This document shows positions 31,067-44,744 of a stretch of 64,000 bases of DNA, in pieces. The stretch covers positions 1 to 64,000 of the forward strand of contig NZ_PPTQ01000009.1 of the NCBI RefSeq assembly GCF_003340345.1, given 5' to 3'. Position 1 is the stretch's first letter; each line of letters begins with the position of its first letter. The position numbers and the translations under genes were made by a program. The stretch comes from Paraeggerthella hongkongensis. Lineage in GTDB: Bacteria; Actinomycetota; Coriobacteriia; Coriobacteriales; Eggerthellaceae. The notes below the pieces were generated by a model. The model was not told the DNA's origin. It worked only from the letters and a program-made list of their open reading frames with translations, and did no database searches.

Positions 31067-31095
31067 GCAAATATTCATGAGATGATATCATTTGC
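31067..31095. promoter_or_regulatory. GCAAAT...ATTTGC inverted repeat upstream of the PadR gene
   Basis: GCAAAT (31067-31072) and ATTTGC (31090-31095) flank 17 bases in an AT-rich stretch about 90 bases before the PadR start. Its position between the divergent TRIC and PadR genes fits an autoregulatory PadR site; the pairing is short, so confidence is modest. Confidence 0.4.
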
Positions 31096-31181
31096 AATTT
31101 TACCGAAAGCGCGCACGACCGAGAACATGCGAAGGCGTGCCGAATCCCAAAGCAAACCGCGTAGTGAAAAAGAGGTTTCCC

Positions 31182-31613
31182 ATGTGGAGCAGTTGTCATC
31201 CTAAGTCCGACGAAGACATGCGAGAGTGCGCGGAGCTCGGCAAGTCGCTCAACCGTTTGTCGCAGCCCACCATCCTTACGCTGCTCGCATGCTCCGACGA
31301 GCCGCTGCACGGCTACGTCATCGTGCAGCAGGCAGCATCCTCGCCCATGTTCGGCGGAAAGAAGCCCGACGCCACCGGCATCTACCGCGCGCTCAAGCGC
31401 ATGGAGGAAGCCGAGCTGGTCACGTCGGAATGGGACGTGCCCGAAGAGGGATCCGCCAAGCGCCTGTTCTCGCTGACCGACAAGGGTCGCTGCTGCCTGC
31501 GCCGCTGGATCGACGCCCTTGCCTGCTACGAGCTCACGCTCGAAGAGCTGCGCGGCCTGGCCGCGTCGGCCCTTGGAATCGACCTGCCCGACGCCCCTCG
31601 TTGTTCCCACTAG
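31182..31613 (+). CDS. PadR-family transcriptional regulator
   Basis: 143 residues from MWSSCHPKSD, chosen for AAAGAGGTTTCCC upstream; the frame is open from 31092. The winged helix reads QPTILTLLACSDEPLHGYVI, GIYRALKRMEEAELVTSEW and KRLFSLTDKGRCCLRRW, typical of PadR. Several N-terminal cysteines (SSCHPK, RECAEL) might sense redox state or metal. No obvious target gene lies beside it apart from the convergent GNAT gene. Confidence 0.88.
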   Translation: MWSSCHPKSDEDMRECAELGKSLNRLSQPTILTLLACSDEPLHGYVIVQQAASSPMFGGKKPDATGIYRALKRMEEAELVTSEWDVPEEGSAKRLFSLTDKGRCCLRRWIDALACYELTLEELRGLAASALGIDLPDAPRCSH

Positions 31614-31646: not shown

Positions 31647-32084
31647 CTAGGGCCGCCGCCCCTTTCGCATAGGCTGCGGCCCGCATTCGTCGCGCATGGT
31701 GCAGTGGTCGCAATCGTCGACCAAGCTCATTTCGATAAGATCCCACCCGATAGGCTCGTAGCCAAGAGCGTCGTAGAACGCGCGACTCGAACCGCGCGAG
31801 ACAAGCCTGAGCTCGCCGTGTCGGGAAAGCGCTTCGTCCATGAGGGCGCGCCCGACGCCGAAGCCCTGCCACGTTCGGTACGTGACAACCGGGTTCACGA
31901 ACGCCACGCCCTCCTTGGACGTGACAACGCGAACGAACCCCACGACCTCGTCGTCTTCGTTCACCGCCACGCGCACGCCCTCGATGGAGGGAATGGCATC
32001 CATCCCCTCGGCGTTCGCGTACGAATCGAGCACCGTCTTGTCTTCTTGCCGCGCATCGCGGATAGAGAACAAATCGCAAACCAC
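31647..32084 (-). CDS. GNAT N-acetyltransferase with a cysteine-rich tail
   Basis: 145 residues. The GNAT core has VVGFVRVVTSKEG, VVTYRTWQGFGVGRALMDEAL (the acetyl-CoA pyrophosphate loop Q/RxxGxG/A is QGFGVG) and SRAFYDALGYEPIG. The last 25 residues hold CDHCTMRDEC, a CX2CX5C cluster unusual for the fold and able to bind zinc or Fe-S. Substrate unknown; it is a single gene. Confidence 0.8.
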   Translation of the reverse strand: MVCDLFSIRDARQEDKTVLDSYANAEGMDAIPSIEGVRVAVNEDDEVVGFVRVVTSKEGVAFVNPVVTYRTWQGFGVGRALMDEALSRHGELRLVSRGSSRAFYDALGYEPIGWDLIEMSLVDDCDHCTMRDECGPQPMRKGRRP

Positions 32085-32164: not shown

Positions 32165-33145
32165 CTAGAACGGCGGCAAGTATATTTTATCCCGCGACTG
32201 AGGGATGGCCTTCTTCCCCAGCTCCTTCAACCCTTTCACCACGTCGGGCATCAAGTCCACGGGAATGCCCATCATCATCATGGAATCGTCCACATCAGAC
32301 GAAGCGCGGCACCCGTAGCACCCGAACGATATGTTGATCTCGCCCGACGTCAGAGGCAGCAGCGTGGTTTCAACGCACTGGGCATTATAGCCGCTTGCAT
32401 GGAAATCATGGCGATGTCCCGTGTAGTACGATGTTGCCATAGACAGCCACATCATCTGCTCGGGCTTCGCGATCACGGCCACCACGTCGGCTGCGCACTT
32501 CGCGTCGTCGAGGGGGCACACCACCGTCGCATCCACCGTACGAGGCTCCAAGCAGGGGCGCTCGTGAACCATGCGCTTCGCCGCCTCTACAGAATCCAGC
32601 TTATGGAACAGGATGTACAGCTCCCCCGACGCAAGCTTCTCCGGCATGGGCGTAAGACCCAGAATGGACGTTCCGTCCGGGCACGCGTGGCGGTTCGCGG
32701 GCATCATGATCGACGCGCCGCGGCGGGCGGCCATGAGCGACTGGCAATAACGCAGACGTTGTTCGGGAAGCGGCACATCGGGAAGCGGCTCCCCTGCCTT
32801 GATAAGGGAGATGGCCACAGGATGCCAGCGCAATCCCAGGATCTCGCGCATCGCATCGGCCCATTCCTTGTACTGGGCTTTCACGGCCTCGTCAAGAGGC
32901 GGCGCCATCTCCCGATCGGCCTGGGCCGCACGCGCAGCGGCCGAGGCTTCGATGCGGATCGCATGCGCCGGGCACTGTCCCGCGCACGTCTCGCAGCCCC
33001 AGCAGTCGTCCAAGCGCAACGCCTGGGGAACGCCTTCCACCAGCTCGAACACGTTCACCGGACAAAACGCCTCGCACAAGCCGCACTGCGTGCACAGCCT
33101 TTGGTCAACATGGATAGCGTAAGCCACCTCGTTGCTATTCGTCAT
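32165..33145 (-). CDS. Ferredoxin-DUF169 fusion protein
   Basis: 326 residues, GGAAGGGA before the ATG. Two 4Fe-4S ferredoxin motifs occupy the first 65 residues (CTQCGLCEAFCPV and CWGCETCAGQCPA). The rest is DUF169, with LRYCQSLMAARRG, ACPDGTSILGLTPMPE and ISFGCYGCRASSDV, whose cysteines may hold another cluster. DUF169 proteins are common in anaerobes with unknown activity. It is the last gene of the operon starting at 43343, so it may link that system to a soluble electron donor. Confidence 0.83.
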   Translation of the reverse strand: MTNSNEVAYAIHVDQRLCTQCGLCEAFCPVNVFELVEGVPQALRLDDCWGCETCAGQCPAHAIRIEASAAARAAQADREMAPPLDEAVKAQYKEWADAMREILGLRWHPVAISLIKAGEPLPDVPLPEQRLRYCQSLMAARRGASIMMPANRHACPDGTSILGLTPMPEKLASGELYILFHKLDSVEAAKRMVHERPCLEPRTVDATVVCPLDDAKCAADVVAVIAKPEQMMWLSMATSYYTGHRHDFHASGYNAQCVETTLLPLTSGEINISFGCYGCRASSDVDDSMMMMGIPVDLMPDVVKGLKELGKKAIPQSRDKIYLPPF

Positions 33146-33211
33146 ATCAGCGTCCCTTCCATAACCTCCGCGCGAAACCGGAAAACCGGCCTTCGAGCCC
33201 GTCGCGCAACC

Positions 33212-34558
33212 TTACCGCAGCGATTCCTTGCACCAGGGCGGATACACCCTTCGCCCGCACGAGTCCGTCAAGTGATACGAGCAGAACGGAATCGCGCGGC
33301 CATCGGGAACCGTGACCATCATGGAGCATTCGCGCAGCCGCTGCGTGTCCATGGACACTGCGTCCATGTAGTTCATGACGATCACCGAAAGCCCACTTGT
33401 CACCTCGACGCCCTTCTGAGCCAGGATGTCCAAGAACACCGAGCCCTGCGGGCTGTCGGGCGAGTACCCTTTGCGGTATTCTTCCATCGTCATCGCCCTG
33501 GTAGCCGGGTAGAAGCCCGACGGATGCGGCGCAACGCCTTGAGGAGGCTCGCCGTGCACGAAGAACACGCCGGTGTCGCACAGCGGGTTCGAGCATCCGA
33601 GCGGCCATACGTCGCGCGGGCCGATAAGCCCTTCCGACTGCTCGGCCAGCTTGAATATCACGTCCCCCGAGCTCATGGGCAGGGCGCGCTCCGCGTCGAA
33701 GCGCCCCGAGGTGAACGCCGGTTGAAGTGCCAAGCCCGCCACCACGTCCGCGTTGTCCAGGCAGAAGCGCAGCAGGTCCCCCAATTGCCCATCGTTCAGG
33801 CCGGCGACCACGGCCACCGACAGCACCACCTGAACGCCCGCCTGGCGGCACCGATCGATGACCTTCAGCTTGACGTCAAGGATGTCCCGGCCGCACGTCC
33901 CCTCGTACACATCGCCCGTCAAGCCGTCGAACGACAGGTACACCCCGGTGAGCCCCGCCTGCACCAGCTCTTCCAAATAGCCGTCGCGCGCGGCGATGAC
34001 CAGGCCGTTGGTGTTGACCTCGATGCCCCAGAAGCCCTTTTCGCGACCCATGCGGATGATCTCGGGCAGATCCTTGCGGCACGTCGGCTCGCCGCCCGTG
34101 ATCTGCACGGCGCCGTCTGCGCCCACCGCGTTCGCGATCACGTCGTACATGGCCTCGATCTCGTCCATCGTAGGATCGCCCTCGCCCGTTTCCGCGCTCA
34201 TGAAGCACACGGGGCAATGCAGGTTGCAGTTGCGCGTGACCTCGATTTCCATGAGCGTTGCGCGACGTTCATGGCGAGAGCATGTGCCGCAACCAAGCGG
34301 GCACGGCCCTGAAGGGGGAATGGCACCGCACGGCGACGTCTTGGGAAACGCGAGCGAGCGCAGCCATTCGTAGTGCGCGGCATCGGGCCACATGCGCGTA
34401 GCAAGCCTGCCGTGATCGGGACAGGTGCGCTCCATCCACACGACGCCCTCGGCGTCGGCGTACACGTCCGCGGGAAGCTCGCGCAAGCAGTCCGGGCACA
34501 GCGCCGTGGTCTTGTGCAGCGGCGCGTGCTCGCTTCCTCTTGTTTTTTGCTCGCTCAT
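33212..34558 (-). CDS. Radical SAM protein, Tes/MJ0619-like
   Basis: 448 residues. The N-terminal zinc-ribbon-like part (CPDCLRELPADVY and RTCPDHG) and a second cysteine group (CPLGCGTCSRH) precede the radical SAM motif CNLHCPVCFM (CX3CX2C) and VQITGGEPTCRKDLPE. The C-terminus has ECSMMV, FCSYHL and a final YPPWCKESL. This arrangement resembles the radical SAM group that includes archaeal tetraether synthase (Tes), whose members join C-H carbons of lipids; assignment to that activity is inference. It lies between DUF2064 and DUF169 genes in a two-molybdoenzyme operon. Confidence 0.82.
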   Translation of the reverse strand: MSEQKTRGSEHAPLHKTTALCPDCLRELPADVYADAEGVVWMERTCPDHGRLATRMWPDAAHYEWLRSLAFPKTSPCGAIPPSGPCPLGCGTCSRHERRATLMEIEVTRNCNLHCPVCFMSAETGEGDPTMDEIEAMYDVIANAVGADGAVQITGGEPTCRKDLPEIIRMGREKGFWGIEVNTNGLVIAARDGYLEELVQAGLTGVYLSFDGLTGDVYEGTCGRDILDVKLKVIDRCRQAGVQVVLSVAVVAGLNDGQLGDLLRFCLDNADVVAGLALQPAFTSGRFDAERALPMSSGDVIFKLAEQSEGLIGPRDVWPLGCSNPLCDTGVFFVHGEPPQGVAPHPSGFYPATRAMTMEEYRKGYSPDSPQGSVFLDILAQKGVEVTSGLSVIVMNYMDAVSMDTQRLRECSMMVTVPDGRAIPFCSYHLTDSCGRRVYPPWCKESLR

Positions 34559-34567
34559 CAGGTCTTC

Positions 34568-35431
34568 TTACTCGTCGATGTACTGACGGGGATCGTGCTC
34601 GTCATTCGGAGGCGTGGCAACCCGGATGCCCATGAAGTCGACCCAGTCGAGCACGCGCTGCGGCACGAACAAGCCGGGCTGGTACGCGGCCGACTGCTTG
34701 ATGGCGCGTATGCACGAGATGGCGTGCGCAAGGTCGGTCGATTCGTCGATGTCGGACACGGGGGACAAATAGGCGCAGGGCACGTCACGGTCCTGAAGCT
34801 TGGCCATGTAGCCGTCAAGTGCCGGAACCCCGTCGGTGTTGTAATAGACGCTTTGATGGTTCACGGGCGTGTTGTGGCTGTACCCCACCAGCGACGTTCC
34901 GCACTCCTGGCACGGCGCCTGCACGAAACCGGGCTTGCCGAGCGCCTGGAAATAGTCGAGCCATTGGAACGACTGGATCACGTGGGATTTGGGCAAGGTG
35001 GGAATGTCGCCGCCCACGGACACCACGTGCTCGTAGCCCAGATCGAAAAGCTGGCGAAACGCGTCGTCGAAATGGTCGTCGAACGTCGCGCCCTTGTCCG
35101 TGAGGTAATGCACCTCCATCGGCCACGGACCGATGGCGTCGTACGTCTCCTTCATAAGCTCCACGTTCGACGCCGGCGTCGTGGACACGAAGAAGTCGTA
35201 GGTGATCTTGTCGACGCTCGGGTCGGCCTCGACGGCAGCGTCGTTTTCAAGCTGCATCTCGATGAGCGCGTGCATCGAAAGCTCGCTCACGTCGTACAGG
35301 CTGCGCTTGAAGAACTCGGCAGCCTGCTCGGGGGTGAGAAACCCGCCTCGCTCGGTGGTCAAGCGCGTCTTTACCATACCCGGCACCGGAGGCTTGCTGA
35401 ACAACAGCAATGCTTGCTTCTTCTCCGCCAT
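34568..35431 (-). CDS. DUF2064 (TIGR04282-type) nucleotidyl/glycosyltransferase-like protein
   Basis: 287 residues with GGAGAATG upstream. The GT-A-like start LLLFSKPPVPGMVKTRLT is diagnostic of DUF2064; VVSVGGDIPTLPKSHVIQSF gives the metal-binding acidic motif, and KPGFVQAPCQECGTSLVGY a cysteine pair. Members are often found beside radical SAM enzymes and are thought to transfer a sugar or nucleotide. Here the neighbour is the Tes-like radical SAM enzyme, 9 bases downstream. Confidence 0.82.
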   Translation of the reverse strand: MAEKKQALLLFSKPPVPGMVKTRLTTERGGFLTPEQAAEFFKRSLYDVSELSMHALIEMQLENDAAVEADPSVDKITYDFFVSTTPASNVELMKETYDAIGPWPMEVHYLTDKGATFDDHFDDAFRQLFDLGYEHVVSVGGDIPTLPKSHVIQSFQWLDYFQALGKPGFVQAPCQECGTSLVGYSHNTPVNHQSVYYNTDGVPALDGYMAKLQDRDVPCAYLSPVSDIDESTDLAHAISCIRAIKQSAAYQPGLFVPQRVLDWVDFMGIRVATPPNDEHDPRQYIDE

Positions 35432-35494
35432 GGGGACATTCTCCTTCTCGTCGTGTTTCTTTTCGTTATAGATCAGCTGTTCACGGCCGTCCGA

Positions 35495-37756
35495 TCAATC
35501 GGGCTTGCCGACGCTTTCCCCCGTCGGCCGCTCCCAGCTTAGAACTCTGTCGACCTTTCGCACTACGCAGTCGACGGCGTTGTAGCACCATGTGCCGATC
35601 ATCGGTTCTTCCGGCCTGCACGATGTGAGGCAGTTCACGTTCGACTCCCAGACGCCCCCGAACGCAGGAGCGCCCGGCTCCCATTCGGGATGCCACCAGC
35701 CGTAATCCACGTTCACAAGATCGTCGCGCATGCGCGCGACGGCCAGCACGAAGCAAGCAGAGCCGTTGTCGGTGGCAACCTCCACGCAATCGCCCGGAGC
35801 CAGCCTCAGGCGCTCGGCCGTAGCCTCGCTCATCTCGGCCACCGGGTACGGCGACTTCTTCCTGAACGATGCGTTGTTGAAGTACATCGACGCGTTGTAG
35901 GGCTGCTTGCGCGAGCCGGTTATCATCGCCACATGCGCCGCCCCCTTCGCCCGGGCGTCGTCGAGCAGTTCCTGCGAGCACAAGGTGATCGGCCTGGCCG
36001 GCGTGGGCAAGCGGGGGCCGCCCAGCCGCGGCAACAGCTCGCTCGCCAGCTCCACCTTGCCCGTCGTGGTTGCGAAGCCCTGAGGACGACCATCGGGGCC
36101 GAGCAGCTCGTGCTTGGCGTACGCGGGCTGCTGCCAGTACGTGCCCAGATCGCAGAACGTATCCCAGTTCACGCCCGCGCGCGCAAGCTGCGCCGCGAAG
36201 GCGTCGGCCAGCGTCTCTTCGGGCCACGCGTCCTTTTGCCCCAAGCGCAAGCCCAGCTCCCGAAACACGTCGTAGTCGCACCGTCGCTCGTAGTAGGGAG
36301 GCACCGCGGCGGGACCGCCGTAGCCCATGTTCGCCACGCCGCCGTGCACCTGCAGCACGGGCCGCTCGATGGCGCCGGCGATCGGCAGAACGTAGTCGGC
36401 GATGCTCGCGGTGGGCGTCATGTAGTAGTCCAGAACCACCAGCAAGTCCAGCCCCGTGAACGCCTCGAAGACGCGATGCGTGTCGGCGTACGTCAGAAGC
36501 GGGTTCGTGGCGTTCACGATAAGCGCGCGCACCGGGTACGGGTCGCCGACCTCCATGGCGCGCAGCACCAGATGCGGATGCGCCGAGGTCAGGTAGCGCT
36601 CCGGAAGCGTGCGTCCCAGCCGCTCCGTAAGAGGGCGAACCAGATCGTAGCCGTCGAAGCACTGAAGCGGGGTGTGCGGCGTGTTCAAGCAGCGCGCGCG
36701 ATGCTCCGGCTTCAGAGCGTCGGTCATCTCGAGCTCCATCTCGGAAACGAAGTCGGGGGCGTCGGCAAGAACGCAGGATCCCGGCTTGTCCACATTGCCC
36801 GTGACGGCGCGCAAGCAGCAGATCGCGCGGTGCGTCGGCGCGACGTTCGCGCCCGCCTGGTCGATGCCGCGGCCCGAAACGAGGGCGGCGGCTCCGGCCT
36901 GCGCGAACAGGCGCGCGGCGCGCACGATGTCGTCAGCCGGCACATCGCACACGCTGGCCACGTATTCGGGCGTGTAGTGCCGTACGCATGCGGCCAACTC
37001 GTCGTAGCCGAAGCACCAAGCGTCCACGAACGCGCGATCGACCAGGTTCTCGGCAATGATCACCTGCAGCAAGCCCAAGGCCAGCGTGCAATCGGTTCCC
37101 GGGCGAACGGGCAGCCACAGATCGGCGACGGCCGCGGCTTGCGTGCGCCGCGGATCGACGACCACCAGCGGCGCGTCGGACTTCGCGAACCGCAGCACGG
37201 AGCGCCAGAATGCCGAGTTGTCGGATTCCGCCGGATTCGTGCCCCAAAGAAACAGGCATTCCGTAACACCCGGAACGATGTCGGCCTCCACCGTCCACCC
37301 GAACGTCAGAGCGTCCATCCAGATGCGCGGGTTCCAGCAGATCTGCCCGATGCCCATGTTGTTCGGGCTTCCGAACAGGTTCATGAAACGATGCAGCGGC
37401 CAAAACGAAGCGTGCGGGCCGCCGATGGCGCTGGCAAGCGTTTCCGGGCCGTGCTCGGCAGCAAGCTCCTGCAACCGCGCCGCAATATCGTCGAGCGCAT
37501 CGTCCCAGCTCACGCGCTCCCACTTCCCGCTGCCGCGCGACCCTGCGCGCCGCAACGGGTAGTTCACCCGATCGGCGCCGTCGAGGGCGTCCAGGTTCAT
37601 GCGCCAGCGGCGACATCCCGCAAGAACGCGAGCATCGTAGGGATAGCGCGCAGGATCGGGGTCGATCTTCACCACGCGCCCATCCTCGACCGTGGCGAGA
37701 AGCGCGCAGCAGTATCCGCAGTAATGGCAGTTCGTAGGCTTGATTTCCGTGGTCAC
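35495..37756 (-). CDS. Cytoplasmic molybdopterin oxidoreductase, DMSO reductase family
   Basis: 753 residues from GTG at 37756, preceded by GGAGGTGATCTC and overlapping the stop of the CCG gene (GTGA). There is no Tat signal: the Fe-S site NCHYCGYCC begins at about residue 9 and the protein should stay in the cytoplasm. FLWGTNPAES and PLRRAGSRGSG are family motifs. QICWNPRIWMD offers a cysteine as possible metal ligand, as in polysulfide reductase or acetylene hydratase types; that is inference. It resembles the 40437-43343 enzyme (ALIVNATNPLLTYAD against ALIVNASNPVNSYGD). The adjacent HdrB-like protein may be its electron partner. Confidence 0.87.
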   Translation of the reverse strand: MTTEIKPTNCHYCGYCCALLATVEDGRVVKIDPDPARYPYDARVLAGCRRWRMNLDALDGADRVNYPLRRAGSRGSGKWERVSWDDALDDIAARLQELAAEHGPETLASAIGGPHASFWPLHRFMNLFGSPNNMGIGQICWNPRIWMDALTFGWTVEADIVPGVTECLFLWGTNPAESDNSAFWRSVLRFAKSDAPLVVVDPRRTQAAAVADLWLPVRPGTDCTLALGLLQVIIAENLVDRAFVDAWCFGYDELAACVRHYTPEYVASVCDVPADDIVRAARLFAQAGAAALVSGRGIDQAGANVAPTHRAICCLRAVTGNVDKPGSCVLADAPDFVSEMELEMTDALKPEHRARCLNTPHTPLQCFDGYDLVRPLTERLGRTLPERYLTSAHPHLVLRAMEVGDPYPVRALIVNATNPLLTYADTHRVFEAFTGLDLLVVLDYYMTPTASIADYVLPIAGAIERPVLQVHGGVANMGYGGPAAVPPYYERRCDYDVFRELGLRLGQKDAWPEETLADAFAAQLARAGVNWDTFCDLGTYWQQPAYAKHELLGPDGRPQGFATTTGKVELASELLPRLGGPRLPTPARPITLCSQELLDDARAKGAAHVAMITGSRKQPYNASMYFNNASFRKKSPYPVAEMSEATAERLRLAPGDCVEVATDNGSACFVLAVARMRDDLVNVDYGWWHPEWEPGAPAFGGVWESNVNCLTSCRPEEPMIGTWCYNAVDCVVRKVDRVLSWERPTGESVGKPD

Positions 37757-38748
37757 GAGATCACCTCCGGACTCGTTTCGACGCGCTGGCCAACGCCGGC
37801 GGCGCAAGCAGCCTTGGGCGCACCGAGAGACGCGAACGCCCGCGAACTCGATGCGCCCTCCACGGCATCAAGAGCGTCGTCGAAAAGAAACCGGAGTTTC
37901 ATGTACGAATCGGCTCGACTCCAATCGATGCGCCAATCGTACAAAAGCTCCAGGTAGTGAAACGCCGAGATCGGCGCCGCAAACGTTTCCAACTGCAGCG
38001 CGCAGCTCATGCACGCCACCACGAACGCGCTCGATCCGGCCGCACGAGCTTCCTGGCCATGACGGCGCGCGGCGTCGTCGGCGCGATCGAACTTCCCAAC
38101 CGCCCGCAGCAACGACCCGCAGCAGTACGAGCGCTTGCGAATATGAGCCAGCTCAACCACAAGGTCGGCGGGCATGAGCGCGCGCACGCCATCGGCGAAT
38201 TCCCCGGTATCCCGATCAGGGCACGAGTCGTGCACGCTCGCGCGCACCTCGGAAGCCGCGACTCCCGTCTCTTGCGCCAGCAGGCGCCGAGCAACGCCTT
38301 CGTCGATACGGTAGCCCAGATCGGCCAGCACCGCAGGCAGCGCGACAGCCTGGATGCCGGCCGTACGCTCGTCGGCCGCAAGCGCGGCGCGCAGGGCCTG
38401 CACGCAATTGGGGCAGGCAGCCACGATGCGCTCGACTTCGGAGGAACGCAAACTTGCGCGCAGCTGCTCTTCGAACGAAGCGCGCACGGCGTCTCCGTCG
38501 GGTTCGTACGACAGTATCTTCCCGCAGCACAAAAGCGAGACGCCGTCGACGCAACCCGCATCCGAAAGAGTGTCGTACACGGCGTTGACCAGCGGCAATC
38601 CGTAGTTGATCAGCGAACAACCGGGAAAGAACACCGAAGAGCACGGGCGCGGATCGCCCGGGACGCGCTCAACCGCGATCTCAAGTTGCGGGAACCCACA
38701 CGAAACAATGCTTCGCGCCAGGGCGTCTTCGAACACGTACTCGCTCAT
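37753..38748 (-). CDS. CCG-domain (HdrB-like) Fe-S protein
   Basis: 331 residues from MSEYVFEDAL, GGAGGG upstream. It has two cysteine-rich CCG modules: FFPGCSLINYG, LLCCGK and ACPNC; then HDSCPDR, SYCCGS and VACMSC. These bind the non-cubane clusters of heterodisulfide-reductase subunit B and related thiol or quinone oxidoreductases. It overlaps the molybdoenzyme gene downstream by four bases, so the two products probably form a complex. The C-terminal tail of about 50 residues is Ala/Glu-rich. Confidence 0.85.
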   Translation of the reverse strand: MSEYVFEDALARSIVSCGFPQLEIAVERVPGDPRPCSSVFFPGCSLINYGLPLVNAVYDTLSDAGCVDGVSLLCCGKILSYEPDGDAVRASFEEQLRASLRSSEVERIVAACPNCVQALRAALAADERTAGIQAVALPAVLADLGYRIDEGVARRLLAQETGVAASEVRASVHDSCPDRDTGEFADGVRALMPADLVVELAHIRKRSYCCGSLLRAVGKFDRADDAARRHGQEARAAGSSAFVVACMSCALQLETFAAPISAFHYLELLYDWRIDWSRADSYMKLRFLFDDALDAVEGASSSRAFASLGAPKAACAAGVGQRVETSPEVIS

Positions 38749-38802
38749 GCAACCCTCCCCCGTCCTCTCCATCGTCTATCCCCTCCGGTCAAAACCGCGC
38801 AT

Positions 38803-38838
38803 CCGGGCTGCAGGCATCCTTGGAAGCCCGCAGCCCGG
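38803..38838 (-). other. Hairpin between the NrfD and CCG genes
   Basis: CCGGGCTGC (38803-38811) pairs with GCAGCCCGG (38830-38838). On the transcribed minus strand it is followed by GCGCGGTTTT, so it may act as a partial terminator separating the first three genes of the operon from the accessory genes. Confidence 0.45.
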
Positions 38839-38849
38839 CGCGGGCGAAT

Positions 38850-39830
38850 TTAGAATTGGTTATCGCCGTACGTCCACTTGGAAATGAACTCCGCGTCCTT
38901 TTTGGCAACGCGATTGTAGTAGCGGTTCTCGCCCGGAATCTCGGCACGATCGTCGGTGTTGACCACCATGAAGCGCAGCAGGCAGCCGCCGCACAGCACC
39001 AGGATGGGAGCCACAACCTGAGCAGCCGGCGAATGGCCGCCGCCCAGGTACATAAGCAGCGGCACCACCAGGCCCAGACCCACCATGCCAACCCAGAACA
39101 GGCCCGCATACGATCCGCGCACCCACCGACGAGCCGCCGCCTTTGCGGTCACGTTGCCGGCACCCGCGAACGACAGGATCATGGTCAGCAGCACGATGAG
39201 CTCGGCAATGACCAGCACGATGTCGGCCACGTGCAGGATTTCCAGCACAACTTCGGACACGACGAACGACTCCAGCGAAAAAGCCGCAGGCCAACCGCCG
39301 ATGGACAAGACGATGGCGGCGCAGCCCGTCGAGATGGCCGAAATGGTGAACAGCACGGGAAGCGCCGGGGTCGCCCAAAACGCATGGGCTTTCAGCGTGG
39401 ACAGCATGATGCCCGTGTACATCATGATGCACAGCCCGAAGAACCCGGCAACCAGCAAGGAGAAGTCGGCGGCGGGCTTCAGAAGATCGGACAGGCCGGC
39501 GAGCACGGGCAGCGCGTCGCCGACGAAGGCGAGAAAGAACACCAGCGCGAGCACCGAGGCAATGACCAGGAACGTCGCGCCCCATTTGATGATGGACTTC
39601 GACGTTGTCCACACCCTCCAGAACACGCCCGGCTGGCCAAGGTCGACGATCAGGAACACGCAGCCCAAGGCCACGCAGCCCAGGGCCACGAGCACCGGAA
39701 GCGCGAACACTTCCGCATGACCCGGAACCACGAAGCTGTTGAAGATAGCAGCCAGGAACAAAACGCCGCCAGCCAAGCCGCCCAGGAACAGGTAGAGGGC
39801 GATGGGGGGCTCCCAGTAATGATGCTTCAT
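38850..39830 (-). CDS. NrfD-type membrane anchor subunit (C subunit)
   Basis: 326 residues, about eight hydrophobic helices: WEPPIALYLFLGGLAGGVLF, VFLIVDLGQPGVFW and ATPALPVLFTISAISTGCAA are NrfD motifs. The ATG overlaps the stop of the ferredoxin subunit by one base (TAATG). It is of the shorter NrfD class, closer in length and motif to the orphan NrfD-like proteins at 9.4 and 20.6 kb than to the 408-residue ones. It should anchor the B subunit and the OCRE-tailed enzyme to the membrane quinone pool. Confidence 0.9.
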   Translation of the reverse strand: MKHHYWEPPIALYLFLGGLAGGVLFLAAIFNSFVVPGHAEVFALPVLVALGCVALGCVFLIVDLGQPGVFWRVWTTSKSIIKWGATFLVIASVLALVFFLAFVGDALPVLAGLSDLLKPAADFSLLVAGFFGLCIMMYTGIMLSTLKAHAFWATPALPVLFTISAISTGCAAIVLSIGGWPAAFSLESFVVSEVVLEILHVADIVLVIAELIVLLTMILSFAGAGNVTAKAAARRWVRGSYAGLFWVGMVGLGLVVPLLMYLGGGHSPAAQVVAPILVLCGGCLLRFMVVNTDDRAEIPGENRYYNRVAKKDAEFISKWTYGDNQF

Positions 39831-40408
39831 TATGCCTTACCTCCCAAATCAGGAATATAGTAGATCTGAGGCTCGGTGCCCAGCTCTTCGAAGAGACGCT
39901 CGGTCTTCACCGATCCGATAAGCTTGGAAACTTCGCTGTTCGGATCATCGAGATCGCCGAAAATGCGGGCCTTCTGATGGCAGGTCAGCACGCAGTACGG
40001 CTGCGCGGAGGGATCGAGCTGGCGCTTGTCGCGGCAGAACGTGCACTTGCGTACGAAGCGGTGCATGCGATCCTCCAGGTGCGAGGCGTCGCGCATGCCG
40101 TAGGGGCAGGCGTTCACGCACACCTTGCACGACAGACATTTTTTGGGGTCGACCCACACGGTTCCGTCTTCGTCTTGCTGGCTTGCGCCCGACGGGCAGC
40201 AGGGAACGCACTCGGGGTTCTCGCAGTGCATGCACAGCAGCGGCCGCCAGCTCTTATGGACGTTGGGCCAGGTGCCCTGCGCGCCCTCGGTAACCACCGG
40301 GTTGTAGATGATGTCAAGCGGAAGCTTGTTCCACGTACGGCAAGCAACCGTGCAGGAATGGCAACCGATGCAACGACGTTGGTCGATGACCATAACGTAA
40401 CGAGTCAT
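39830..40408 (-). CDS. Four-cluster ferredoxin-like subunit (PsrB/NrfC type)
   Basis: 192 residues from MTRYVMVIDQRRC, with GAAAGGATAG upstream; a longer frame to 40456 would overlap the upstream gene. Four cluster motifs: CIGCHSCTVAC, CMHCENPECVPCC, CLSCKVCVNAC and CTFC with CVLTC. It transfers electrons between the NrfD protein and the catalytic subunit that flank it in the operon. Confidence 0.92.
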   Translation of the reverse strand: MTRYVMVIDQRRCIGCHSCTVACRTWNKLPLDIIYNPVVTEGAQGTWPNVHKSWRPLLCMHCENPECVPCCPSGASQQDEDGTVWVDPKKCLSCKVCVNACPYGMRDASHLEDRMHRFVRKCTFCRDKRQLDPSAQPYCVLTCHQKARIFGDLDDPNSEVSKLIGSVKTERLFEELGTEPQIYYIPDLGGKA

Positions 40409-40436
40409 GTATCTATCCTTTCTTCCCGCTCGGCAA

Positions 40437-43343
40437 CTAGTCTTCGACGGGGGCATACGACATGTCGTAGCGCTTGCCCGTCGCCTCGTCGATCAGATTT
40501 CCCGTGGCCGCGTCGTAGAGCCACCCGTAGTACGCGTCGTGGAACGCGCCGCTTTCAGGATCCAGCAACCAGCCGCTGTTCGGATCGTAGACGTACGGAA
40601 GGTCGCCAAGGACGGCGCAGCCCGCCTCCGCGTTCCAGGTCAAGTTCTCGGGAACCTCGAACGGGGCAGCCGCCGCACCGGGATAGCAACGGACGCCCGC
40701 CACGACCACGATTTCCTCGCGATCCATCGTGTACAGCTTGCCGGTCGCGTCGTCCACAAGGCACTCGCCCGCCGCGTCGTAGCGCCAGCCGGTGTACGCG
40801 TCGTGGTACGCCTTCGTGCGGGGGTTGACGAGCCAACCCGATTCGTCAAGACGGAAATGCGTGTCCTTCTGGTACAGGGCGTTGTTCTGCCACACCCATT
40901 CGTATCCCTCGGGAACGTCCTCGGGAGGCTGCGGCTTCTCGAACGGAATAGGCTCGCGTGCAAGCTTCTGGTCGCTTGGCATGACCGTGACGCCCGGCTT
41001 AACCGAAGATCCGGGGATGGAGAACTGGGTATCCTCCGGCTTGTACTCCTTGTCGAAATCGCCGCACTTGTACACCTTGCACATCAGGCCGCGGTTCGCC
41101 CACGATCCGCCCATCGGATCGCAGTGCTCGTCATCGACCGAGGTCAGCACGTTGACGTTCGACTCAAGGCACCCGAAGGGGTTGTTCAGATCGGCGGAGC
41201 CGTCGCGCTCGGGGAACCACCAGCCGCGCGGCGCGAACACCACGTTCGGATGGACTTCCGCCTCCACGTTGGCGCGCATCTTGATGCGGCCGCGACGCGT
41301 TTCTATCCAGCACCATTCCCCGTACTCGATGTTGAGCTTCGCAGCCAGTTCCGGGTTGATGGAGAAGTACGGATCGGGATACAGGTAGCGAATGCCCTGC
41401 ATCTGGAAGTGCTCCGAATGGTGGTACGGCATGAAGCCGCCGCCCGTGGTGAGCACGATAGGGTATTCCGCAGCGATCTCCGGGGTGTCGATCTCGTTTT
41501 CGATACAGCCGATGTAGGTGGGCATGCCCGCGTAGCCAAGCTCGCGCAGGATGGACGAGTTGCACTCGACCTTGCCCGAAGGCGTCCAGAAGCCGCCGTT
41601 GGTCTTGAACTTGTTCTGATGCAGCGGCGGATAGTACATGCGATAGTAGTCGACGAAATCGTCGTAGCATTCCACGCCGGGCAGGCCCAAAGGCTGGAGA
41701 ATGTGGAAGTAGGCTTCTTCCTCGGTCTCCCAAGGCCAGTTGGCGGGATCCTGGCCGCACGCAAGTCCCAGCTTGCGCCAGAACGTCATGTCGGTGTGGC
41801 GGTCGTACTTGGGCTGCATGGCGCGCTTCCCGCCCATGATCGAGTCGGTTGCGCCGTAATGGGTGACGATGGTGGGCCGCTCGAGCGCGCCCGCCGCCGG
41901 GAACACGTAGTCGGACAGCAGCGCCGTGGGGGTCATCCAGTAGTCCACGGTGACCAGGAACTCGCATTTCTTCAGCGCTTCGAGCGTCATCTTGGCGTCG
42001 CCGTACGAGTTGACGGGGTTGCTGGCGTTCACGATGAGCGCGCGCACCTGGTACGGGTCGCCCGTGATGATGGCCTTGAAAACGCTGGGGCCGTGCGCCT
42101 CGCAGAACCACTCGGTGGGCAGCGTCTTGCCCCACGTGCGCTTCGCGTTATCGGAGATAAGCTGGTAACCGGGCCACGAGGTGAGCTTGAACTTGTTGGA
42201 GCCGATCTGCTTGCCCTTCTGCTCTTCGGGCAGGCACTCGTTAAGCTCCATCTCCTCGTCGGTAAGGTAGTTCAAAGCGGGGCCGGGCATGCCGTCGCCG
42301 CCGGGAACGTCCAGGTTTCCGCAGATCGCACGTATAAGGGCGATAGCGTGGCTGCCGGTGGTGGAAGCGCGACCGATCTGGTCCCACGTGCAGCCCCACT
42401 GGATGCAGCCCGGCGTGTTCATGGCGTACAGGCGCGCGGCCTCGCGAATCTTGTCAGGCTCGAGCCAGGTGATGGGGGCGGCCCATTCCGGCGTGTACTC
42501 GGCGACGTGCTCTTGAAGCTCGTCGAAGCCGTCGCACCACTCGCCCACGAAATCGTAGTCGACAAGGCCCTCGTAGATGATGGTGTGGAGCATGGCAAGC
42601 GCGAGCGCCGCATCGGAGCCGGGACGCAGCGGCAGCCACAGGTCGGCTTTGGAGGCCGTTTCGGAATACCGAGGATCCACGACCACGATCTTCAAGCCGG
42701 CTTTCTGTAGGTCCGTGTAGCCGTTCATGCCGCCTAGCGTGGAGGCACCTGGGTTCATGCCCCAGAGGATGAGGCACTTCGCGCCCATGAGGTCGGTTTC
42801 GAACGGCGACCAACCCGCCACGCAGGTTTCGGCCATGAACGTGGGGATCCAGCACAGCAGCGCGTTGTGGAACCCGTTCGGCGTGCCGAACTGATTCAGG
42901 AAGCGGCGACGCGCCCAGTCGTCGGTGCGCGTGGTGCCGCCCGCGGAAGCTACCGCTTCGGCGCCGCTTTCCTTCTTTATCTGGTTCAGCCGATCGGCAA
43001 CTTCTTGGATGGCCTGGTCGTACGGGATCTTCTCCCAGTTGCCCTCGCCCTTGCCGCCCACGCGCTTCAACGCATGGTTGATGCGGGCGGGGTGGTTGAC
43101 GTGCAGCAACGCGCTGGTGCCGCGACAGCACAATCCGCCTTGGTTCGAGTAATCGGGATCGCCCTCGATCTTGATTACGTCGCCGTCTTTGACGTAAGCG
43201 AGCACGCCGCAGTTGGCATGGCAGAAATAGCAGAGCGACTTGACCATGGTGACACCCTCTTGATGGATGTCCACCTCGGTCGATTCGGTATCCGGGCACA
43301 CAAGGCCCTTGAGACCGCTCGACGTCTTGGAAATCTCCGTCAT
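40437..43343 (-). CDS. Molybdopterin oxidoreductase with C-terminal OCRE-like octamer repeats
   Basis: 968 residues from ATG at 43343 (GGGGAAGG upstream); an internal ATG at 43247 with GAGGGTG before it is a credible alternative and would start at MVKSLCYFCHANC. There is no Tat signal. The Fe-S site is CYFCHANC (CX2CX3C) with a fourth cysteine in GGLCCRG; LILWGMNPGAST is a family motif, and ALLCWIPTFMAE offers a cysteine as a possible metal ligand. After the usual C-terminal domain come two units of about 45 residues (about 830-874 and 917-962) containing DESGWLVNP, DAYTGWRYD and DDATGKLY, then YDPNSGWLLDP, DAYYGWLYD and DEATGKRYD. This is the aromatic octamer pattern of OCRE domains, unexpected in this enzyme family. 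It is the first gene of a long operon. Confidence 0.88.
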   Translation of the reverse strand: MTEISKTSSGLKGLVCPDTESTEVDIHQEGVTMVKSLCYFCHANCGVLAYVKDGDVIKIEGDPDYSNQGGLCCRGTSALLHVNHPARINHALKRVGGKGEGNWEKIPYDQAIQEVADRLNQIKKESGAEAVASAGGTTRTDDWARRRFLNQFGTPNGFHNALLCWIPTFMAETCVAGWSPFETDLMGAKCLILWGMNPGASTLGGMNGYTDLQKAGLKIVVVDPRYSETASKADLWLPLRPGSDAALALAMLHTIIYEGLVDYDFVGEWCDGFDELQEHVAEYTPEWAAPITWLEPDKIREAARLYAMNTPGCIQWGCTWDQIGRASTTGSHAIALIRAICGNLDVPGGDGMPGPALNYLTDEEMELNECLPEEQKGKQIGSNKFKLTSWPGYQLISDNAKRTWGKTLPTEWFCEAHGPSVFKAIITGDPYQVRALIVNASNPVNSYGDAKMTLEALKKCEFLVTVDYWMTPTALLSDYVFPAAGALERPTIVTHYGATDSIMGGKRAMQPKYDRHTDMTFWRKLGLACGQDPANWPWETEEEAYFHILQPLGLPGVECYDDFVDYYRMYYPPLHQNKFKTNGGFWTPSGKVECNSSILRELGYAGMPTYIGCIENEIDTPEIAAEYPIVLTTGGGFMPYHHSEHFQMQGIRYLYPDPYFSINPELAAKLNIEYGEWCWIETRRGRIKMRANVEAEVHPNVVFAPRGWWFPERDGSADLNNPFGCLESNVNVLTSVDDEHCDPMGGSWANRGLMCKVYKCGDFDKEYKPEDTQFSIPGSSVKPGVTVMPSDQKLAREPIPFEKPQPPEDVPEGYEWVWQNNALYQKDTHFRLDESGWLVNPRTKAYHDAYTGWRYDAAGECLVDDATGKLYTMDREEIVVVAGVRCYPGAAAAPFEVPENLTWNAEAGCAVLGDLPYVYDPNSGWLLDPESGAFHDAYYGWLYDAATGNLIDEATGKRYDMSYAPVED

Positions 43344-43925
43344 CTACCTTCCCCTCTTCTTCTCGTCCGTTTTCCTCACCGTTTAACCCTGTCGTACCGT
43401 TCGCATGATTATGCGCGGGAGCTCCGCTTGGCATGAACGCTCTCGCTCGCGCGGATCATCCACGTCAGTGTATAAAACGCCCGTTCCATCCACATCACCC
43501 CGGAAGCTCTAAATTCCGCCAGCGAGTAAGCCCGCTAGTATTAGTTGATCGGACCTCGATTTCCGCGCCGACCGCTCGCCTGGGCATTCCGCGCGCTCCC
43601 GGGGACATGGCACGGCTCCCCCGGATCGAACCGGCGCAGCAGCAGTTCGTCTTCTTCAACCGCCAATCGGCATCGTGCTTCTCGTCTTCTTTAGTTGCTC
43701 GATGCCAACAAGTAGTAGATTAGATCTGCTAATTGATTATAACCATGCATAAAAGCATGTGCTACCCCGATAATGGATTTTTGCGCCCCCGACGATCCAA
43801 AAAAGAGGATAACGATGCAATGAATCCGCCCATATCGGGTACGGCTCGTCGCGGGACCCGAGGAAAGCCCGCCGCAAAAGCGATATCATGAAGCAGTGGG
43901 CACGACAAACAATCAAGGAGCAGCG
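43344..43925. other. Divergent intergenic region upstream of the long molybdoenzyme operon
   Basis: No gene is convincing. An open frame at 43433-43723 lacks a ribosome binding site and homology that I recognise. The region 43690-43790 is AT-rich (GTAGTAGATTAGATCTGC, TGATTATAACC) and is the likely promoter area for the divergent operons. A GGTTCGATCC word on the minus strand near 43625 is not part of a tRNA. Confidence 0.55.
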
Positions 43926-44744
43926 ATGGAAAAAGGGACGCATACGTTCACGTTCATGGGCACCGCCGCCGGGTGCGGCATACCGGCCTTCTTCTGCGAC
44001 TGCCCCGCCTGCAACGAGGCTCGTCGGAACCCGCGCGCGCGGCGCGGCGATTGCGGCGTCATGGTGCGGGGCGCGAACGCCGACGGCTCGCCAGGCAGGA
44101 CCGTGCTCATCGACACGCCGCCCGACGTGCGCCATCAACTCATCCGAGAGGACGTGCGCACCGTGGACGAACTGCTGTTCACGCACGCGCACTTCGACCA
44201 CATGGGCGGCCTGGGAGAGCTGGAGTACCTTGTGCAGCTTGTGCGCAAGGCGGCGCTGCCCACGTACGGCAGCGCCGCGACGCTCGAAGGCATCGGCCGG
44301 GAGTTCCACTACATGACGGGCTGCCTGGACATGCGCGAGATTCAGCCCCACCAGCGCATCGAGCTGGACGGCGCGCGCTACACGGCCCTGCCGGTGACGC
44401 ACGCGCCCGGCACGTACGGATACCTTATCGAAACCGAGGAGACCCGCCTGTTCTACGCGTCGGACACCGGCAAGCTGCCCCCTGAAACGGCCGAGCGCGT
44501 GAGAGGTGTGGACATCATGGCCATGGACGCCACGTTCTGGAAGCGAAACTGGTCGCCCGACGACCACCACAGCGTGCAGGAGTGCATCGAAGAGGGGTTG
44601 GGGCTTGGCGCCAAGACGCTGTACCTCACGCATTTGGCCATGCACTACGACGAGCCCGTCACGCTTGAAGAGCTGGAGAACTACCTCGAGCAGTACGACG
44701 GTCGCGTGAAGCCCGCCACCGACGGGCTGTCGCTTTCGATCTGA
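43926..44744 (+). CDS. Metallo-beta-lactamase-fold hydrolase, PhnP-like
   Basis: 272 residues from MEKGTHTF, AAGGAGCAGCG upstream. FMGTAAGCGIPAFFCDCPAC carries the C-x-C-x2-C structural zinc motif of PhnP-type cyclic phosphodiesterases. The catalytic metal motif is THAHFDHMGG, with later VTHAPGTYGY, YASDTGK and LTHLAMHYD. It hydrolyses a phosphodiester or a related ester; no phosphonate genes are nearby. It is followed after 38 bases by the Zn dehydrogenase, probably in one operon. Confidence 0.88.
   Translation: MEKGTHTFTFMGTAAGCGIPAFFCDCPACNEARRNPRARRGDCGVMVRGANADGSPGRTVLIDTPPDVRHQLIREDVRTVDELLFTHAHFDHMGGLGELEYLVQLVRKAALPTYGSAATLEGIGREFHYMTGCLDMREIQPHQRIELDGARYTALPVTHAPGTYGYLIETEETRLFYASDTGKLPPETAERVRGVDIMAMDATFWKRNWSPDDHHSVQECIEEGLGLGAKTLYLTHLAMHYDEPVTLEELENYLEQYDGRVKPATDGLSLSI

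Follow-up and report, generated by a model that had tools for sequence, protein, structure and literature searches.

What is the function of a gene series that places two molybdoenzymes beside a radical SAM enzyme, a predicted nucleotidyltransferase and a ferredoxin fused to DUF169? The question is raised by a stretch of 64,000 nucleotides from Paraeggerthella hongkongensis (contig NZ_PPTQ01000009.1, positions 1 to 64,000), called the window here; it belongs to contig C53 of a genome with a size of 2.86 Mb and a completeness of 99.89%. Nine genes, all on the minus strand, were found in the transcription order molyA1, FeS_B, NrfD, CCG, molyA2, DUF2064, rSAM, Fd-DUF169 and GNAT (Table 1). An initial annotation of the same DNA had described eight of them as one operon; open reading frame and family searches bore out the positions, strand and families of all eight, and the series was found to be longer, as the GNAT gene belongs to it too. 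The existence and conservation of the cluster were confirmed, and no description of it was found in the literature that could be searched. Families, conserved order, co-occurrence with ArsS, physical links and the predicted fold of DUF2064 were established by computation. The association with ArsS was the strongest result, and we tentatively propose, at somewhat less than even chances, that the cluster is one conserved system acting on an arsenosugar-type organoarsenical that is either made by ArsS or imported.

Conservation of the cluster and its association with ArsS

A pattern scan with the rSAM protein over 84,980 species, with one genome per species, detects close relatives only and returned 28 loci, of which 27 belonged to Coriobacteriia and one to a metagenome-assembled genome (MAG) of Anaerolineales. 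Together with the loci of further relatives, and with identical rSAM sequences counted once, 49 distinct orthologous loci were compared (loci and genomes carry our L and G numbers). The order count omitted L167-L169, L174, L175 and L227, which are second copies, other rSAM branches or a stretch without rSAM. Matches to rSAM above an E value of 1e-60 were dropped everywhere, and the class matches below 400 bits (G735, G747, G753 and G770) were dropped from the cluster set. The same-strand neighbours of rSAM were DUF2064 in 47/48 loci, Fd-DUF169 in 41/44, molyA2 in 40/44, CCG in 39/43, GNAT in 38/41, FeS_B and NrfD each in 30/39, and molyA1 in 26/33. In these counts the DUF2064 of L222 (45% identity) fell below the threshold and was scored as missing though present, L006 was scored without CCG and molyA2 owing to runs of N, L014 and L016 were scored without molyA1 though a cut fragment is present, and the CCG counted in L007, L172 and L222 is the copy downstream of GNAT, the only one there.

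Among the seven loci scored without molyA1, four (L094, L097, L172 and L232) truly lacked it in the stretch examined, L014 and L016 were cut inside it, and L030 carried insertions, so that molyA1 may sit further out. The orthologous complex of molyA1, FeS_B and NrfD (A-B-C) was missing in L094, L097, L171, L172 and L232, and a molybdoenzyme was missing nearby in the stretches examined of L096, L173 and L222, with GNAT also missing from L173. These loci, together with a hairpin between NrfD and CCG, show the redox part to be modular. Conservation was highest for the core DUF2064-rSAM-DUF169-GNAT, which the molybdoenzymes usually accompany but from which they can be separated. Gene order was kept across Eggerthellaceae, related Coriobacteriia and several taxonomic families, and the Anaerolineales MAG (L029) carried all nine genes and an MBL gene, with rSAM moved ahead of molyA2. 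Pairwise gene distances correlated at 0.73-0.95, and those of DUF169 at 0.52-0.77 (19 loci, some of them near-duplicates). The suggestion of the initial annotation that a substrate-modifying part (radical SAM, transferase) is joined to a redox part in a conserved unit is supported by the kept order and the correlated distances. The rSAM gene was present in 62 of 138 Eggerthellaceae genomes and, at 400 bits or more, in 32 of 296 Coriobacteriia genomes. The phylum to which the MAG belongs was searched in 301 genomes, and the only clear orthologue was that of the MAG itself (G429, 717 bits; next G550, 354 bits); phyla beyond this one and Actinomycetota were covered only by the pattern scan.

ArsS genes were found beside the cluster in two loci. 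In L170, genes for ArsS (TIGR04167, 418 bits, cut-off 300), an MTA-phosphorylase-like protein and a MobA-like protein lay in or beside the cluster, and in L171 an ArsM-ArsS fusion lay 4 kb downstream of it with a CobW-related GTPase. ArsS was therefore sought across genomes. In the 138 Eggerthellaceae genomes, where the cluster occurred in 62 and ArsS in 59, both were present in 52, the cluster only in 10, ArsS only in 7 and neither in 69 (Fisher p 4.4e-20). Counted by genus, 23 of 48 genera had both, 3 the cluster only, 2 ArsS only and 20 neither (p 3e-8); the genus labels of genomes without a match were assigned by hand from listings showing part of the negatives, and the totals 138 and 48 and the tallies 26 and 25 were computed. 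SelB, the sole control and of similar frequency, showed no association with the cluster in the 138 genomes (31/31/42/34, p 0.61). Selenium as a shared cause of the ArsS link was not supported, SelB being unrelated to the cluster and to ArsS. In the 296 Coriobacteriia genomes, which include the Eggerthellaceae and are not independent of the 138, ArsS was found in 27 of 32 cluster genomes vs 24 of 264 others.

Physical links were also observed. ArsS lay at most 35 kb from the cluster in 10 genomes of six genera (G741, G825, G1020, G1024, G021, G988, G388, G780, G843 and G993), with distances of 19-33 kb in four genomes of the Gordonibacter genus (g45) and two of g21. In L223, ArsS shared one 19 kb contig with the cluster, and in L222 an AhpD(TIGR04169)-ArsS pair was convergent to CCG2-GNAT-DUF169-rSAM-DUF2064-MBL. 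The MBL gene flanked molyA1 in many loci, and a relative of it flanked ArsS instead in three Gordonibacter genomes (L197, L198 and L226). The statement of the initial annotation that the gene content matches no recognised pathway can thus be refined: the content is tied to ArsS and arsenosugar-type genes, which lay beyond the DNA then in view.

Two further observations concern ArsS itself. ArsM-ArsS fusions of 659-753 amino acids occurred in several Eggerthellaceae genera (L171, L199, L203, L211, L213 and L215), and a CobW-related GTPase gene adjoined five of the six. In the ArsS locus L228 (G975), a TIGR04282 domain above its cut-off was fused to an APH-type kinase domain, the latter being 30% identical to the APH-type kinase of the window's genome; this fusion suggests that kinase and nucleotidyltransferase act in sequence.

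An importer of the ATP-binding cassette (ABC) type was found near several clusters. The cluster was followed by an ABC binding-protein gene in L181, L183, L233, L176 and L172, and, in loci whose sequence extended far enough, also by genes for the permease and the ATPase (L233, read by eye). The binding protein was present at 62% identity or more in 17 of the 138 Eggerthellaceae genomes; an eighteenth match, in G1007 (37% identity), was excluded from the importer set. In tests devised after the data had been seen and uncorrected for that, the importer was present in 14/62 cluster genomes vs 3/76 others (p 0.001) and, within the cluster genomes, in 6/10 without ArsS vs 8/52 with ArsS (p 0.006). 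ArsS or the importer was present in 58 of 62 cluster genomes vs 10 of 76 others. In the window's genome the binding protein was found on contig C1 (65% identity). The importer has as neighbours there an APH-type kinase, a nucleoside hydrolase and a CCG protein, the last sharing 50-56% identity with CCG2, the copy downstream of GNAT, of L183, L181, L233 and L015. In G902 (L240) the importer lay beside TIGR04282 and TIGR04283 proteins, both above cut-off. Apart from the cluster, L235 and L240 (G002 and G902, genomes with neither ArsS nor the cluster) carried genes for an ABC importer, TIGR04283, TIGR04282, CCG and APH-type proteins, the families having been tested in L240 only; these loci possibly serve arsenosugar salvage.

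A possible organoarsenical pathway and its rivals

In the proposed pathway, we infer that the element is arsenic, in what sequence and by what chemistry the steps proceed, which way the electrons flow and what the importer carries. ArsS would attach a 5'-deoxyadenosyl group to methylated arsenic, the base would be removed by a phosphorylase or by a deaminase and a nucleoside hydrolase, and an APH-type kinase would phosphorylate the sugar. Alternatively, the ABC system may import the compound or its nucleoside, which is the entry proposed for the ArsS-less genome of the window. Nucleotide activation of the phosphorylated compound might then fall to the CofC-fold DUF2064 protein. On this compound the Tes-like rSAM could form a C-C bond or a C-methyl group, for which Fd-DUF169 would supply the electrons, and GNAT may acetylate an intermediate. 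Finally, molyA2 with the HdrB-like CCG protein in the cytoplasm and molyA1-B-C at the membrane would reduce or oxidise the product, and the membrane complex would exchange electrons with menaquinone.

Several points weigh against this proposal. The window's genome had no ArsS, and its best ArsM match was unconvincing (56 bits, cut-off 263); the DUF2064 protein of the window scored 62 bits against TIGR04282, for which the cut-off is 134. Seven of the 138 genomes had ArsS and no cluster, and four cluster genomes (G013, G865, G1016 and G1019) had neither ArsS nor the importer. Importer and ArsS were not strict alternatives, since eight cluster genomes had both, and over the 138 genomes the two were unrelated (8/51/9/70, p 0.80); the importer comparisons, moreover, were post hoc, as said above. 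The cluster-ArsS correlation ignores the species tree, which the test by genus only lessens. Linkage was seen in five Eggerthellaceae genera of 23, with a rough binomial p of 0.005 that depends on roughly assumed rates, and in the remaining genomes with both, which are the majority, ArsS lay farther off or on another contig. The gut contains little arsenic, and no gene for an arsenic regulator was noticed among those of the cluster.

The main rival explanation, which we regard as unlikely, is that the cluster would serve molybdenum cofactor maturation for molyA1 and molyA2, with rSAM alkylating the pterin and DUF2064 remaking the dinucleotide. It would account for the HMPTM zinc ribbon of rSAM, which is present in pterin methylases, and for the MobA-like gene inside the L170 cluster. 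It is also consistent with the paralogous TrsS/DVU_155x system (L169, L175), in which a related rSAM is coupled to a molybdenum aldehyde oxidoreductase; L169 (G741) adds an XdhC-type maturation factor, a MocA-like nucleoside triphosphate transferase and CCG, and then MoeA, Mog, MoaC and MoaA-like genes (these last names, as well as those in L175, were read from the sequence and not by family search). However, cofactor maturation does not predict the associations with ArsS and the importer, and DUF2064-rSAM occurred without nearby molybdoenzymes in L096, L173 and L222. Improbable to a similar degree is that two separate neighbouring units are split by the hairpin, namely a respiratory A-B-C complex for an organic acceptor and an independent pathway from CCG to GNAT. 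The initial annotation had named this hairpin and separate promoters as possible dividers. The hairpin at the NrfD-CCG junction is real and strong, the stretch 38740-38852 folding at -52.7 kcal/mol (z -3.3; as stable in 1 of 200 shuffles), and molyA1 was not found in 7/33 loci, four of them truly lacking it. No T run follows the hairpin, a terminator scan did not include it among its sites, and promoter-like sites were no commoner than in shuffles (3 vs 2.7). A-B-C lay upstream in 26/33 loci, including the MAG locus L029 with its moved rSAM, and the molyA1 and rSAM distances correlated at 0.92 over the same 19 loci, both of which argue against a division.

The cluster might instead salvage the 5'-deoxyadenosine that radical SAM enzymes release as a by-product; no arsenic chemistry would be involved, and ArsS would then only mark cells rich in radical SAM enzymes. 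We consider this still less probable, although an MTA-phosphorylase-like gene, nucleoside hydrolases, APH-type kinases and amidohydrolases below the deaminase cut-offs (253-288 of 522 bits for 5'-deoxyadenosine deaminase, with N-ethylammeline chlorohydrolase the best match) were found near ArsS, importer and cluster loci. The isomerase and aldolase of the known 5-deoxyribose route were not noticed nearby, no search having been aimed at them, and both the ArsM-ArsS fusions and the TIGR04283 and TIGR04282 proteins beside the importer point to arsenic. PMC7028382 reports that catechol dehydroxylases are nearest to acetylene hydratase and that Eggerthella and Gordonibacter encode many of them, and acetylene hydratase was the closest solved protein to molyA1 and molyA2 as well. 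That the cluster reduces a dietary compound in the manner of the catechol dehydroxylases of other Eggerthellaceae, and that the neighbouring genes are incidental, is nevertheless very doubtful, as the order was conserved over many genera and in the Anaerolineales MAG and the core of radical SAM and nucleotidyltransferase genes was kept without molybdoenzymes.

We therefore retain, as a tentative proposal, the action on an arsenosugar-type organoarsenical. A bolder form of it, which we judge very improbable, is that the system makes and uses a cofactor or redox carrier that contains arsenic. An organoarsenical derived from ArsS, made or imported like a vitamin, would be nucleotidylated, receive a C-C bond by radical chemistry and shuttle two electrons for molyA2-CCG and molyA1-B-C by cycling between As(III) and As(V)=O. 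If the pathway is correct, Actinobacteria that are common in the gut (Gordonibacter, Ellagibacter, Adlercreutzia and uncultured relatives) would join an organoarsenic pathway to molybdoenzyme redox chemistry, functions would be obtained together for DUF169, the CofC-like DUF2064 and a Tes-like bacterial radical SAM family, and arsenic speciation in the gut would become testable at the gene level. Even without arsenic, the pattern of making or importing suggests that many gut bacteria need or share some hitherto unrecognised small molecule.

Gene products and junctions

Table 1. Features of the window at and beside the cluster, in transcription order of the minus strand, followed by the flanking genes
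Feature	Position	Strand	Evidence
molyA1, bis-molybdopterin guanine dinucleotide molybdo/tungstoenzyme, catalytic subunit	40437..43343	-	Pfam PF00384, PF01568, PF04879, OCRE
FeS_B, ferredoxin-type FeS subunit, NrfC/ArrB/TtrB kind	39830..40411	-	Fer4_11
NrfD-type membrane subunit	38850..39830	-	PF03916, 108.6 bits
Hairpin, NrfD-CCG intergenic, without T run	38803..38838	-	fold of 38740-38852
CCG (HdrB-like) protein, two complete cysteine-rich motifs	37753..38748	-	PF02754 in two stretches
molyA2, second, soluble molybdoenzyme, acetylene hydratase branch	35495..37756	-	2E7Z match
DUF2064 protein, predicted CofC-type nucleotidyltransferase	34568..35431	-	PF09837 and AlphaFold model
rSAM, radical SAM protein, Tes/TrsS/HMPTM group	33212..34558	-	CxxxCxxC, HMPTM zinc ribbon
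Fd-DUF169, 2[4Fe-4S] ferredoxin fused to DUF169	32165..33145	-	PF02596, 188 bits
GNAT acetyltransferase, final gene of the series	31647..32084	-	PF13508, PF00583
PadR-type regulator, convergent, often beside the cluster in other loci	31092..31613, called start 31218	+	PF03551
MBL-fold hydrolase (PhnP-like), divergent from molyA1	43896..44744, called start 43926	+	PF12706

The genes for the catalytic, FeS and NrfD subunits of an A-B-C complex with an NrfD anchor were present in that order. The closest solved protein to both molybdoenzymes was acetylene hydratase (2E7Z; E 5.7e-107 for molyA1 and 2.6e-93 for molyA2). Asp13, which adjoins the second [4Fe-4S] cysteine, is an important residue of acetylene hydratase, and its position was occupied by His in molyA1 and Gly in molyA2. 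The CxxCDxxC motif of acetylene hydratase was accordingly CxxCHxxC in 20 of 25 molyA1 orthologues (five gave no motif) and CxxCGYxC in 37 of 39 molyA2 orthologues (two gave no motif). The position of the Cys metal ligand was Cys in both enzymes, and C-W was read at the metal-ligand site of 20/25 molyA1 and 37/39 molyA2 sequences, the remaining rows having no match or a different stretch. No twin-arginine translocation signal was seen by eye in molyA1. As an observation in its own right, two OCRE-type repeats were found at the C-terminus of this bacterial molybdoenzyme (window 40437-40900). FeS_B scored below the cut-offs of the NrfC, ArrB and TtrB models. The best NCBIfam match of CCG was NF045663, 'dicluster near Sec', below its cut-off (68.6 bits, cut-off 530), and a PDB sequence search with CCG gave no match.

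The NrfD gene overlaps the FeS_B gene in a stop/start overlap at 39830. The molyA2 protein had been taken as fused translationally to the HdrB-like protein; the two are separate genes, as molyA2 starts at its own GTG at 37756 and CCG stops at 37753. This overlap of only 4 bases allows translational coupling at most. In Gordonibacter pamelaeae (L006), CCG and molyA2 seemed to be fused, but the open reading frame contains 1248 N, in runs, and the fusion was rejected as an artefact of these.

In the rSAM protein, the CxxxCxxC triad and the HMPTM zinc ribbon are accompanied by additional cysteines that Tes has as well. The protein scored below the cut-offs of both TrsS (NF045646, 331 bits, cut-off 490) and Tes (NF045702, 293 bits, cut-off 450) and matched the Tes structure 7TOL at E 4.6e-70. 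Of 396 Actinomycetota genomes, none had a protein above the NF045646 cut-off. TrsS loci elsewhere in this phylum were rejected as instances of the same cluster, since 17 of 18 regions matched only the rSAM query of 13; the eighteenth (L084) was a Gordonibacter copy of the cluster.

The DUF2064 protein had been called glycosyltransferase-like, and its AlphaFold model (predicted local distance difference test score, pLDDT, 89.6) looks like a CofC-type nucleotidyltransferase instead. The Foldseek search gave 3cgx (E 5.4e-13), then FbiD (Rv2983, an F420 enzyme) and 3-phosphoglycerate guanylyltransferase, with template-modelling scores by target of 0.63-0.77 for the first eight matches. This predicted resemblance makes nucleotidyl transfer likelier than glycosyl transfer. 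The TIGR04282 model was matched by all 17 members of A2 (best E 2.3e-18). Besides the ferredoxin part, cysteines C134, C155, C257 and C276 of Fd-DUF169 were invariant both in a set of 14 sequences and in one of 20. The best matches of its fold model (pLDDT 74) were ferredoxins, none at E below 0.001 and none informing the DUF169 part itself. The DUF169 gene of the window was discordant: its product was 55% identical to that of Gordonibacter sp. 28C, where the neighbours were 71-96% identical, yet 81% identical to that of L177, and the gene was probably replaced by recombination. The MBL-fold protein scored 115.6 bits against the PhnP model, below the cut-off of 272, and Rfam and tRNA searches of the window gave no matches.

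Relation to known systems

No account of the cluster was found in the titles and abstract beginnings among the matches listed in the literature searches; Haft and Tolstoy 2025 or Haft and Gwadz 2023 might hold one. TrsS is listed in PMC13188914 with reference to Haft and Tolstoy 2025, and DUF169 is one table entry in PMC5322559. PMC11887054 makes no mention of arsen or radical SAM, and of the DVU155x locus tags DVU1559 appears once in each of two papers, as a list entry. Several names of neighbouring genes in the loci compared were read by eye from the sequence, and some were later tested by family search.

The TrsS/DVU_1551-1559 system resembles the cluster in its branch of the rSAM superfamily (the rSAM proteins being about 25-34% identical), a CCG dicluster protein, a protein of nucleotidyltransferase fold and a molybdoenzyme. 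It differs in having an ArsM-like methyltransferase, a CoA ligase, a C-GCAxxG-C-C protein and an aldehyde oxidoreductase of the xanthine oxidase family. The DVU_1556 methyltransferase and the DVU_1553 CoA ligase were absent among the scanned genes of the window and beside the orthologues compared; a family search detected one or the other in L075 and L169, and similarity pointed them out in L174 and L175. A TrsS/DVU_155x-type system with a molybdenum aldehyde oxidoreductase shared one genome with the cluster in G741 (L169, family search) and G429 (L175, read from the sequence). In L167 and L168 (G941 and G963), second rSAM copies (42% identical) stood with genes for CCG, another radical SAM protein and an Ahy-like molybdoenzyme (38%) and, read by eye, with NuoE, NuoF and NuoG-like genes; these loci possibly represent an NADH-linked relative of the cluster system.

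Tes (7TOL) aligns with the cluster rSAM in the ribbon cysteines, CPxxCGxC, the radical SAM triad and the C-terminal cysteines, whereas the rSAM score lies below the Tes cut-off, as given above, and the operon partners differ. We know of no archaeal lipids in these bacteria. Acetylene hydratase, related to catechol dehydroxylases and the closest solved relative of both molybdoenzymes, shares the position of the Cys ligand, whereas its Asp13 site is His or Gly in the orthologues and molyA1 has B and C subunits.

In oxo-arsenosugar biosynthesis, a radical SAM enzyme adenosylates arsenic, with ArsS as the reference, according to PMC12159101. Arsenosugar loci (ArsM, ArsS of TIGR04167, the peroxidase-like TIGR04169, TIGR04282 and TIGR04283) are related to the cluster by the co-occurrence of ArsS and by linkage in several genera, and a DUF2064-family protein and CCG proteins of one kind are common to both. 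The defining ArsS, in the locus or in the genome, was lacking from the window's genome and present in 52 of the 62 cluster genomes. Unlike the arsenosugar loci, the cluster of the window contains neither ArsS nor ArsM, its DUF2064 protein lies below the TIGR04282 cut-off, and it adds a Tes-like rSAM, Fd-DUF169, GNAT and two molybdoenzymes.

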